Below, in pieces: positions 29,158 to 33,352 of a stretch of 64,000 nt of DNA (the first letter of the stretch is position 1; each line of letters begins with the position of its first letter). The notes beneath the pieces were generated by a model. It was not told where the DNA came from. It did not search any database and saw nothing but the letters and a program-made list of their open reading frames with translations. The stretch spans positions 1 to 64,000 of the forward strand of contig NZ_NKXO01000008.1 in the NCBI RefSeq assembly GCF_002843425.1, written 5' to 3'. Source of the DNA: Raineya orbicola. Lineage in GTDB: Bacteria > Bacteroidota > Bacteroidia > Cytophagales > Thermonemataceae. A program made the position numbers and the translations under genes.

Positions 29158-29211
29158 AGTCATTGTTAGTACAAACCCAATAAAAATGTAAATTTCAGAA
29201 AATAAGTGATT

Positions 29212-29994
29212 ATGAATTATTGGACAGAATTAAGCATAGAGTATGCTAATCAAAAATCTTATCTTGATGATTTATTTCAAGTATATCCTACTATTCCCGA
29301 AGGCATTAGGGAAATCAATCAAACAATTTGGAAAAAGGTAGAACAGGCTTTTGAAAGTCAAGATAATATTTCGCTTATCAGAGAACTACTCAAATTGGAT
29401 TTATTTCCTATCAAAGACAGCTATATTGCTTTTTTGAAAAGAGATAGTTCCGCCATAGAGAGAAATCCTAAAACAATAAACCGAATTTGTGGAAGATTAT
29501 ACGAAATGGGACTTGAAAAAATTTTTGAAAAATGCACAGAGCCGAAGGAAACTAATCGGCAAATTGGACCTTTATTTCGCAGATGGCTTAACAAAAGAAC
29601 ATTAGGCATACAACCTGTTGGATTAGATAAATTTATAAGTTCTGATGAAGATGCCATTTTAGAAGGCAGTGATCAAGAACTGGCTAATTTTGCCCGAAAT
29701 GTTTTGAACTATCAACGAGAAAAAGGGCTTGACTTTGTAGCACGCTTCAACAAGCAGTATATTATAGGTGAAAGCAAATTTTTAACAGACTTTGGTGGGC
29801 ATCAAAATGCACAATTTGCAGATGCCATAGCTACTTTGCAAACCCCAAACGTGAATGCTATAAAAATCGCTATTCTTGATGGAGTGCTATACATCAAAGG
29901 AGAAAATAAAATGTATAAAGAACTTACCACTAAATACAAAAATTACAATATTATGAGTGCTTTGGTGTTAAGGGAATTTTTATATCAACTTTAA
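29212..29994 (+). CDS. putative type II restriction endonuclease
   Basis: 260 residues from the ATG at 29212; a GTG two codons earlier is the alternative. The C-terminal half contains a PD-(D/E)xK-like site: Asp174 in GLDFVARF, then Glu187-x-Lys189 in IIGESKFLTDFGGHQNAQFADA. The ESK and GGHQ spacing is common in type II endonucleases. The N-terminal half is helical. I do not assign a recognition sequence or a family name. The main argument is its partner: an adenine-type DNA methyltransferase starts 38 bp downstream. Codon use looks more AT-rich than in the neighbouring genes, which fits acquisition by transfer. Confidence 0.78.
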   Translation: MNYWTELSIEYANQKSYLDDLFQVYPTIPEGIREINQTIWKKVEQAFESQDNISLIRELLKLDLFPIKDSYIAFLKRDSSAIERNPKTINRICGRLYEMGLEKIFEKCTEPKETNRQIGPLFRRWLNKRTLGIQPVGLDKFISSDEDAILEGSDQELANFARNVLNYQREKGLDFVARFNKQYIIGESKFLTDFGGHQNAQFADAIATLQTPNVNAIKIAILDGVLYIKGENKMYKELTTKYKNYNIMSALVLREFLYQL

Positions 29995-30032
29995 GGACTT
30001 TTGTATATCTTTACAAAAAGAAAACAAAACCT

Positions 30033-31166
30033 ATGTTTTTGAATTATCCAAATAAAAAAACAGAAAGTAAGATTTACACACAAATTCCTGATAGCGAGTT
30101 TATTAAAAGCAATAACGAAGTAAGTCCAAATAAATTAATTTTTGGAGAAAACTCGCTTGTAATTAAAAACTTAATAGAGAAACAAGGTTTAGCAGGCAAA
30201 ATAGACCTTATTTACATAGACCCGCCTTTTGCTACCAATAATACTTTTACCTTTTCAGAAAAAAGAACAAGTACCATTAGCAATGAAAAAAATGGAAAAA
30301 TTGCTTATTCGGATAAACTGCAAGGGGCAGAATTTTTAGAGTTTTTACGTGAAAGATTAGTTTTGCTTAAAGTGCTTTTATCAGAACAAGGTTCTATTTA
30401 TTTGCACACAGACTATAAAATTGGACATTATGTAAAAATCATTATGGACGAAGTTTTTGGTATAGAAAATTTTAGAAACGACATTACGCGTATAAAATGC
30501 AACCCTAAAAACTTTGCAAGAATAGGTTATGGCAATATCAAAGATTTAATTTTGTTTTACTCCAAAGGTGAGAACCCGATTTGGAATGAACCTAAAACGC
30601 CTTACACAGAAGCAGATAAAATCAAACTTTTCCCTAAAATAGATAAAAACGGCAAAAGATATACAACTATCCCATTACACGCTCCCGGTGAAACGCAAAA
30701 TGGTAAAACCTCCCAAAGTTTCAAAGGAATATTTCCCCCCAAAGGCAGACACTGGCGAACCGATGTAGTTACATTAGAACTTTGGGACGAGCAGGGGCTT
30801 ATTGAGTGGTCGGATAATGGAAATCCACGAAAAAAAATTTATTTAGACGAACAAGATGGAAAGCGAGTTCAAGACATATGGGATATGAAAGACCCTCAAT
30901 ATCCGTTATACCCCACAGAAAAGAATTCTGAATTGCTGGATTTAATTATTAAAACTTCTTCCAATCCTGAAAGTTATGTATTGGATTGTTTTTGTGGTTC
31001 AGGAACTACTTTGAAATCGGCACATCTTTTAGGCAGAAATTGGATAGGCATAGACCAATCCGAGCAAGCTATCAAGATTTGCATAAAAAAGTTAAATAGC
31101 ATTACAGGAGACATATTCACAACAAAACCAACTTACGAAATAATCAGATGTGAAGAAAAAAGATAG
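30033..31166 (+). CDS. beta-class DNA methyltransferase of a type II restriction-modification system
   Basis: 377 residues. The catalytic motif IV DPPF (residues 63-66, in LIYIDPPFATNN) comes first, and the SAM motif I FCGSGTT (320-326, in LDCFCGSGTTLKSAH) is near the C-terminus. This is the beta-class order of N6-adenine and some N4-cytosine enzymes. A long target-recognition region (about 140-280) lies between, with VWDMKD/DIWDMKDPQYPLYPTEK before motif I. It follows the putative endonuclease gene and should protect the host from it. The specificity cannot be read. It is convergent with cysD, 56 bp apart. Confidence 0.92.
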   Translation: MFLNYPNKKTESKIYTQIPDSEFIKSNNEVSPNKLIFGENSLVIKNLIEKQGLAGKIDLIYIDPPFATNNTFTFSEKRTSTISNEKNGKIAYSDKLQGAEFLEFLRERLVLLKVLLSEQGSIYLHTDYKIGHYVKIIMDEVFGIENFRNDITRIKCNPKNFARIGYGNIKDLILFYSKGENPIWNEPKTPYTEADKIKLFPKIDKNGKRYTTIPLHAPGETQNGKTSQSFKGIFPPKGRHWRTDVVTLELWDEQGLIEWSDNGNPRKKIYLDEQDGKRVQDIWDMKDPQYPLYPTEKNSELLDLIIKTSSNPESYVLDCFCGSGTTLKSAHLLGRNWIGIDQSEQAIKICIKKLNSITGDIFTTKPTYEIIRCEEKR

Positions 31167-32125: not shown

Positions 32126-32140
32126 AATGTTTGTTTTTTA

Positions 32141-32148
32141 CAAAAGTA
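32141..32148 (-). promoter_or_regulatory. -7 box TACTTTTG for cysD
   Basis: TACTTTTG on the minus strand ends 15 nt before the cysD ATG. Several T-runs lie upstream but none gives a perfect -33 spacing. Confidence 0.5.
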
Positions 32149-32252
32149 GAAATTTTTTGCAAAAAAATTCTCCAAAAAATTTGTTTGTCTAAAATAAAAT
32201 TTGCAAGATTGCCAAAAAAAGGAAAGAAATGCTAAAATGTTGTAACCATATT

Positions 32253-32320
32253 GCCAAAAGTATTTACAGAGCTTCAAAGCGTGAAGTGCTTGTGCCTTTT
32301 GGCTCGCCCTTTGGTTCAGG
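32253..32320 (+). ncRNA. structured leader RNA candidate
   Basis: GCCAAAAG (32253-32260) pairs with CTTTTGGC (32296-32303). Inside, a second stem with bulges joins ACA-AGC-TTCA to TGAA-GCT-TGT. Directly after this, GGTTCAGG (32313-32320) is complementary to CCTGAACC at 32368-32375, which is the left arm of a terminator. Such competing pairing is the layout of an attenuator or riboswitch-like leader. No known riboswitch class is recognised. No clear promoter was found on this strand. Confidence 0.45.
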
Positions 32321-32365
32321 AAATTGCTGATGTATTTAGAATAAAAAACTTTATTCATAAAAGCA

Positions 32366-32396
32366 AACCTGAACCACTCAAAGTTCAGGTTTTTTT
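32366..32396 (+). terminator. intrinsic terminator in front of a small ORF
   Basis: A perfect 9-bp stem, AACCTGAAC (32366-32374) with GTTCAGGTT (32383-32391), has an 8-nt loop and is followed by T7. It lies 25 bp upstream of an ORF start, not after a gene on this strand, so it points to attenuation or to the end of a small RNA. Confidence 0.75.
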
Positions 32397-32420
32397 GTTT
32401 CACCCTTAAATTTAACCGCT

Positions 32421-32612
32421 ATGGAAAACTTAATCAAAACCAACAAATGCCCTACAATTTGGCTCGGTGTGGATACTATGGTGCAAAACCAAGCCCATAG
32501 CGAAGCCCTTATCGTAGAAACTCGCCCCGATTTAGATGGTGATAACTTTAATACATCTATTGAGGGGGGAGATAGCGATAAAGAAATCGCTTGCTCGGAA
32601 GGTAAAGGATAA
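32421..32612 (+). CDS. small acidic ORF of unknown function
   Basis: 63 residues starting MENLIKTNKCPTIWLGVDTM, with an acidic Gly/Ser-rich C-terminal half and two Cys (residues 9 and 57). There is no signal peptide or membrane helix. It is placed between a leader with a terminator and a strong terminator at 32699, which makes it the only candidate product of this unit. Codon choice looks like real coding sequence, but no family is recognised and an overlapping open frame exists on the other strand. It may be expressed only when the upstream terminator is disarmed. Confidence 0.45.
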   Translation: MENLIKTNKCPTIWLGVDTMVQNQAHSEALIVETRPDLDGDNFNTSIEGGDSDKEIACSEGKG

Positions 32613-32691
32613 TTGGCTTTGTTTTGAATAATATAGCCAACAAGTAGCAATTTCACTCATAGCAAAGATTTAAAAAATCTTGATAAGTTAA

Positions 32692-32738
32692 GCCAAAAAA
32701 GCAATGCCCTCCAACGAATTAGAGGGCATTTTTTGGCT
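32692..32738. terminator. long bidirectional terminator
   Basis: AGCCAAAAAA then ATGCCCTC on the left pairs with GAGGGCAT then TTTTTTGGCT on the right, interrupted by a two-base bulge. It can end the small-ORF transcript (plus) and the Spy-like gene (minus). Confidence 0.82.
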
Positions 32739-32752
32739 TTGTAGGGAGGCTA

Positions 32753-33280
32753 CTAAATTTCATCTTCTACCTCATCAAGCACCATTTCTTCAAAATCTTC
32801 ATCATTTTCAAGAAATCCCGAGTCTTGTTTATTTAATTTTTTACGCATCTGGCGACGCTTTTCCATTCGTTTTCTCATTTTTTCTTTTCGCTCTTGCTTT
32901 AATTTTTCATATTCAACTTTTTGCTGATTGTTGAGCAAGGCTGAAATATTTTGGTCTCTTTGTTGGTTAAGTTCCCTGACTTGTTTGGCATAAAATCCTT
33001 TTTCTGGTTTTTCGCCACGTTCTCTTTGAGCCTTGGCTTCTTTGCGTAATCTATCAATTTCGCGAGCTGTGTTGAGATTGATTTGATAGATTTGCTCCTT
33101 TTGCTCTCCGTTCAAGCTCAAACGCTTTGTCAGGTTGTTGGTAAGGATTTTAGCACGCTCTTCGGGAGTTTTAGGTTGGAAATTGCGATTATTTTTTCGC
33201 ATCGGCATTCTTTGTGCCTCGGCAACAAAAAATACGCCCCAAATAATAAGAAAAACAAAACTGAATGCAGATTTTTTCAT
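32753..33280 (-). CDS. periplasmic Spy/CpxP-like helical protein
   Basis: 175 residues from the Met at 33280 with a clear signal peptide (MKKSAFSFVFLIIWGVFFVAEAQ). The mature part is almost entirely charged helix. It has an LTNNLTKRLSLNGEQKEQIYQIN block and a later LLNNQQKVEYEKLKQERKEK block, the pair of LTxxQ-like repeats seen in Spy/CpxP and Bacteroidota DUF4890-type proteins. The C-terminus turns acidic (DEDFEEMVLDEVEDE). A chaperone or envelope-stress role is plausible by family only. The frame extends upstream to 33343 without a leader-like sequence, so the later Met is chosen. Confidence 0.72.
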   Translation of the reverse strand: MKKSAFSFVFLIIWGVFFVAEAQRMPMRKNNRNFQPKTPEERAKILTNNLTKRLSLNGEQKEQIYQINLNTAREIDRLRKEAKAQRERGEKPEKGFYAKQVRELNQQRDQNISALLNNQQKVEYEKLKQERKEKMRKRMEKRRQMRKKLNKQDSGFLENDEDFEEMVLDEVEDEI

Positions 33281-33352
33281 AAGACTATAATTTAAGTGAT
33301 TTATTGCTTTGATGTAAAACACAGCCTGAGGTTTAATGGACATTTTGAAATT

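Follow-up and report, generated by a model that had tools for sequence, protein, structure and literature searches.

Gene order and features of the locus

The unit described here occupies positions 32229 to 32736 of the window, by which we mean the whole 64,000-nucleotide stretch of Raineya orbicola DNA that was analyzed. In plus-strand order it comprises a leader ORF, a terminator, a small ORF (ORF2), and a second terminator, and it is flanked by cysD, which is encoded divergently on the minus strand and has a Pfam PAPS_reduct match, and by a converging gene (32753 to 33343). When the sequence was rechecked, every element listed in the first-pass annotation was present at its coordinates; its remark that the first terminator does not follow any gene on that strand was wrong, as the 33-codon ORF at 32229 to 32330, which it had not seen, precedes the terminator. 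The features are as follows.

32126-32228: divergent control region from cysD to the leader ORF, conserved in three species
32229-32330, plus strand: leader ORF (uORF) of 33 codons, MLKCCNHIAKSIYRASKREVLVPFGSPFGSGNC, with the stop TGA at 32328-32330
32253-32303, plus strand: hairpin GCCAAAAG/CTTTTGGC within the leader ORF, arms 32253-32260 and 32296-32303
32313-32320, plus strand: antiterminator 5' arm GGTTCAGG, leader codons 29-31 (GGT TCA GGA)
32324-32328 with 32362-32366, plus strand: extension of the antiterminator helix, TTGCT with AGCAA
32365-32396, plus strand: intrinsic terminator, 10-bp stem 32365-32374/32383-32392, loop of 8, T7 at 32390-32396
32368-32375, plus strand: CCTGAACC, shared partner, either antiterminator 3' arm or terminator 5' arm (from state folding and from pair counts)
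32421-32612, plus strand: ORF2, 63 codons, genus-restricted small protein
about 32703-32736, plus strand: strong unit-end terminator (GCCCTC/GAGGGC), with a similar stem in G001

Only ∼24 nt separate the T run of the first terminator from the start of ORF2 in the window (∼37 nt in G002), a gap that can hardly accommodate a separate promoter, and thus ORF2 should depend on read-through. The plus-strand unit must have its promoter within 32126 to 32228, where inspection by eye found no TAnnTTTG box on the plus strand. On the minus strand (32126 to 32160), TACTTTTG, which lies shortly before the cysD start, fits TAnnTTTG, the Bacteroidota −7 consensus (PMC7366714), and remains TAnnTTTG in G001 and G003; it is likely the promoter that drives cysD away from the leader unit. 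The terminator at about 32703 to 32736 is probably common to the plus-strand unit and the converging gene. Also beside cysD, a Tsp45I-type restriction enzyme and a DNA methylase occupy 29206 to 31166; since the G001 locus has another gene there, this pair looks like an insertion.

ORF2 was present in all four species of the genus examined, with dN/dS values of 0.53, 0.11, and 0.20, which agrees with the earlier proposal that this 63-residue ORF encodes a real small protein. Elsewhere in the order, a search of 390 genomes yielded nothing but weak matches within longer frames. Conserved motifs (KCPT, VQNQAxSE, RPD) mark the N-terminal part, and the C terminus is variable and longer in G002. No Pfam, NCBIfam, or PADLOC family and no significant PHROG or PDB relative was found, and AlphaFold2 gave no confident fold (mean pLDDT of 51). 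Assignment to a known family, phage protein, or defence gene was rejected, given no significant matches and no viral-contig relative, and a second ORF2-like match on G002 contig 3 was dismissed as chance, lying inside a repetitive protein gene.

The leader ORF and its alternative pairings

Orthologues of the leader ORF occur in the sister species G001 and G003 (MLKRCNHIAKSIYKTSKREVFMPFGSPFGSGNC and MQKSYKNIVKTICLTLKCKVFNPFGSPLGSGIC), with equal length, zero indels, and the same stop. Among the window, G001, and G003, dN/dS was 0.13, 0.50, and 0.20, and synonymous divergence was 0.5 to 1.3 (Nei-Gojobori), comparable to that of cysD (0.6 to 1.4); between the window and G001 leaders, 2.8% of random substitution placements gave equally few amino-acid changes. 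On this comparison, the leader ORF evolves as a protein under purifying selection. The folded segment noted earlier at 32253 to 32303 does exist, but it is the body of the coding leader ORF. Its covariation is no better than that of shuffles, of which 296 in 500 do as well, and the hairpin, intact in G001 and with two pairs broken in G003, is probably not an aptamer.

The antiterminator is formed by TGGTTCAGG with CCTGAACCA, lengthened by TTGCT with AGCAA, and has computed energies of −22.7, −20.1, and −22.9 kcal/mol in the window, G001, and G003, versus −12.1, −12.1, and −11.6 kcal/mol for the terminator alone. State folding in these three species bore out the mutually exclusive pairings among GGTTCAGG, CCTGAACC, and the terminator that had been proposed: the antiterminator dominates until the terminator 3' arm is made, and a ribosome footprint at the leader stop abolishes it, so that the terminator forms. 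With the ribosomal P site at codon 22 or earlier, the folding keeps the antiterminator. The leader stop lies 34 nt before the terminator, and the spacing is constant in the three species, with 7 nt between arm and stop and 36 to 37 nt between stop and CCTGAACC. Moreover, GGTTCAGG is identical in G001 and G003, while neighbouring synonymous sites vary and none varies within it, and the terminator (32365 to 32396) is conserved in both and, with a compensated change, in G002.

Such an arrangement is more than chance would give. Freeing the terminator 5' arm costs 10.0 kcal/mol in the window, ranking first of 47 intrinsic terminators (one finder, ∼464 kb of genome), and the same terminator also leads the 47 in the length of the 3'-arm copy lying upstream; by the energy needed to free the left arm, the G002 terminator comes third among 76 (one finder). 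The pattern GTTCRGG..CCYGAAC..GTTCRGG occurs once each in G000, G001, and G003, in every case at the orthologous site and nowhere else; of 55 genomes from outside the genus, 2 contain it.

In G002, the fourth species, the unit sits at another locus, by aroA; the position beside cysD, mentioned earlier, holds for the window but is not essential. Its terminator reads CCCGAAC/GTTCGGG and its upstream arm TTCGGG, with one position changed in all three arms. Across the leaders, 4 pairs are altered on both sides, a level of compensatory change that 2 of 500 shuffles reach in a set of only four sequences, three of them close. The G002 leader frame differs downstream, with its stop 25 nt past the arm, and thus masking by a ribosome at the stop codon does not carry over as drawn. 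An imperfect AT-rich inverted repeat ∼40 bp long, possibly an operator, lies upstream of the G002 leader (L005, 1195 to 1245).

Proposed ribosome-mediated attenuation and rival explanations

A coding leader, mutually exclusive pairings, a geometry fixed in three species, and a conserved ORF2 are all apparent from the sequence comparisons, and we consider it likely that in these Raineya-related bacteria of hot springs the unit at 32229 to 32736 is a leader-peptide (ribosome-mediated) transcription attenuator controlling ORF2, best read as a trp/his-type device without amino-acid codon runs. As in known leader-peptide attenuators, a short coding ORF, a terminator before the target, and an antiterminator overlapping leader codons occur together in the window, G001, and G003. 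The attenuator geometry recognized in the first-pass annotation is supported; its proposal of an undescribed regulatory RNA stands insofar as an attenuator precedes a small protein, but the type is probably that of a leader peptide rather than a riboswitch, as the region is coding and the hairpin unconserved.

As we infer its operation, from transcription through ribosome stalling to the direction and signal of the switch, RNA polymerase would transcribe the leader, and the position of the ribosome on the leader ORF would decide the outcome. A ribosome lagging or stalling in roughly the first 22 codons would leave codons 29 to 31 free to pair with CCTGAACC, the terminator would be blocked, and ORF2 would be made. 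A ribosome reaching the TGA at 32328 would cover the antiterminator arm, the terminator would form, and transcription would stop near 32396. None of the three leaders has a single-amino-acid codon run, which points to general translation as the signal; translation speed or damage, rather than one amino acid, is a plausible candidate that falls a little short of being favored. By analogy with uORFs such as toiL, the leader may sense general translation stress.

The trp, his, leu, and ilv attenuators share with the window a short leader ORF, an arm overlapping its last codons, a terminator before the target, and a decision made by the ribosome, but they have regulatory codon runs and biosynthetic targets, whereas the window has no run and an orphan small protein. 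A run of codons for the amino acid of the target operon, the mark of amino-acid-specific leaders, is thus lacking here, and the target is not a biosynthetic gene. Another known system is the toiL uORF of Escherichia coli topAI-yjhQ, which senses several kinds of ribosome stalling (PMC12121999); like the proposed window leader, it is a general stalling sensor not tuned to one amino acid, but it acts on a ribosome-binding site and Rho, whereas the window switch is an intrinsic terminator. For Bacteroidota, leader-peptide attenuation has seldom been documented, and the textbook examples each respond to a single amino acid. Until it added its own cases from Firmicutes, a 2010 survey knew of no examples beyond Proteobacteria and Actinobacteria (PMC2965389), and for Bacteroidota we found only leader-peptide-like sORFs noted in long 5' untranslated regions of B. 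thetaiotaomicron (PMC7366714).

Three other explanations were weighed. The unit might be a two-peptide operon with a leaky terminator, in which the 33-residue peptide is the product (a signal, toxin, or modified peptide) and ORF2 its partner, the terminator only sets the ratio of peptide to ORF2, and the antiterminator match is accidental or secondary. The peptide end PFGSPxGSGxC is kept beyond the arm in the window, G001, and G003, with synonymous changes around the arm, so that the peptide itself could act; moreover, the conserved N terminus and variable tail of ORF2 resemble a precursor peptide. Against this, the peptide end is lost in G002, where the arm tracks the change in the terminator, no synonymous change falls within GGTTCAGG, the upstream arm copy holds the top rank among the 47 terminators, and no modifying enzyme was recognized among the scanned neighbouring genes. 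We regard such an operon as unlikely.

The chances are slimmer still that the terminator answers to a riboswitch or to some other leader RNA that binds a ligand or a protein, with the leader ORF incidental. The terminator/antiterminator geometry would suit it, and the leader folds better than shuffles (z = −2.9), but the region evolves as codons, the hairpin is unconserved and breaks in G003, and no Rfam family matched. A SAM-II-like match at 32194 to 32245 was set aside as chance (19.8 bits versus 44 required, E of 0.51, first stem unpaired). Least probable, in our judgment, is a stand-alone small RNA or small mRNA ending at 32396, with ORF2 read only by accident. The leader does end in a strong terminator, and attenuator leader transcripts can function themselves, as PMC7298713 indicates for the peTrpL peptide; however, the segment is coding, and ORF2 is co-conserved with its own downstream terminator, the second locus included. 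The small RNA ending at 32396 that had been offered as an alternative is thus expected as the terminated product of the leader but not as a stand-alone RNA.

Similar layouts at RNA-repair genes

A covariance model built from the four leaders was used to search ∼190 genomes and gave weak, individually nonsignificant matches outside the genus. Several of these directly precede RNA-repair genes, and in them the arm is overlapped by a short leader ORF: before RtcB in G117, G192, and G176 and before TROVE in G103 and G052. TROVE identity was confirmed by Pfam and a family search; a family search identified the RtcB copies standing there in G117 and G192, the G176 copy is recognized by its N-terminal sequence only, and the claim for G192 and G176 is limited to layout. 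The model matches L085, L086, L090, and L127 were discarded, as they lie in or across coding regions.

We defined a signature with three parts: a leader ORF of 15 to 60 codons, a distance of 10 to 45 nt from its end to a terminator, and, within its last codons, a copy of 6 nt or more of that terminator's 3' arm. Of 23 terminators that precede the RtcB/TROVE genes sampled, 11 carry it, versus 1 of 33 other terminators at these loci and 3 of 155 terminators from samples of the G000 and G002 genomes, the window's own terminator being among these three (Fisher, 4e-9 and 8e-5 in the two control comparisons). This enrichment also counts in favor of the attenuator reading of the window; the RtcB/TROVE idea arose from the model matches, three of the 11 belong to discovery loci (L147 twice, L243), leaving 8 of 20, and loci that share ancestry are not independent cases. 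The upstream regions of RtcB that were sampled mostly lack a terminator altogether, so that a general control of RtcB was rejected and the attenuator is placed in some lineages only. At the G002 TROVE and G123 RtcB genes, the computed cost of freeing the arm is small. The window itself carries the signature (9-nt copy, 33 codons, 34 nt), and downstream of it, in place of RtcB, TROVE, or a tRNA array, stands ORF2, which matches no family and which none of the tests made supports as an RNA-repair gene. At the thresholds used, neither RtcB nor TROVE was found in the window's genome.

Leader-ORF attenuator layouts were seen before RtcB at L124, L128, L131/L147, L177, and L180 and before TROVE at L129/L132/L243, L230, L241, L242, and L246, spread over several Cytophagales families and with two in tandem at some loci. 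In G002, a model match with a leader ORF and terminator precedes an eight-tRNA array, beyond which more ORFs and then TROVE lie in the same orientation (L253, C1:3342000-3349500). The order in G003 is a leader ORF of 40 codons, a terminator, a 5-tRNA array, and TROVE/Ro60 (L254, C46:2500-6795). The leader peptides at L253 and L254 contain SSGIC and ASGAF, recalling GSGNC/GSGIC of the ORF2 leader. BLASTP found no homology between the window leader peptide and the leaders before TROVE, and their PFG..SGxC resemblance is only a lead. Rfam searches of the window and ten related loci gave nothing at gathering level except tRNAs.

The look-alikes before RNA-repair genes suggest a response to damaged or stalled translation. 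More tentatively, we can picture a Cytophagales class of attenuators without codon runs that would sense stalled or damaged translation and induce RtcB, TROVE/Ro60, and extra tRNA arrays, with ORF2 as a small protein of the same response; we hold this to be possible but doubtful. RNA-repair genes are induced by RNA damage in the RtcR-controlled rtcBA operons (PMC7790460), which have the same target class as the look-alikes, a class to which the target in the window does not belong; a transcription activator governs those operons, whereas the look-alikes are leader-ORF attenuators. If they work as drawn, stalled ribosomes could induce RNA repair directly, and no dedicated activator would be needed. 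Their association with RNA repair makes general translation-stress sensing attractive for the ORF2 leader as well, and if the class is real, its control region would be the first clue to the role of ORF2.

The Pedo-repair RNA (RF01715) is a candidate RNA of Pedobacter, also in Bacteroidota (PMC2864571), and by its name only may be related to RNA repair; a match to it at 32679 to 32792 is chance (17.3 bits versus 150 required). Lastly, the same leader-ORF layout, with the leader ORF MKEAPVLVPHSQKVNIDFLAKGTGIPLHPIWIDI, precedes a thioredoxin-like gene at L088/L089 (G103, G052).
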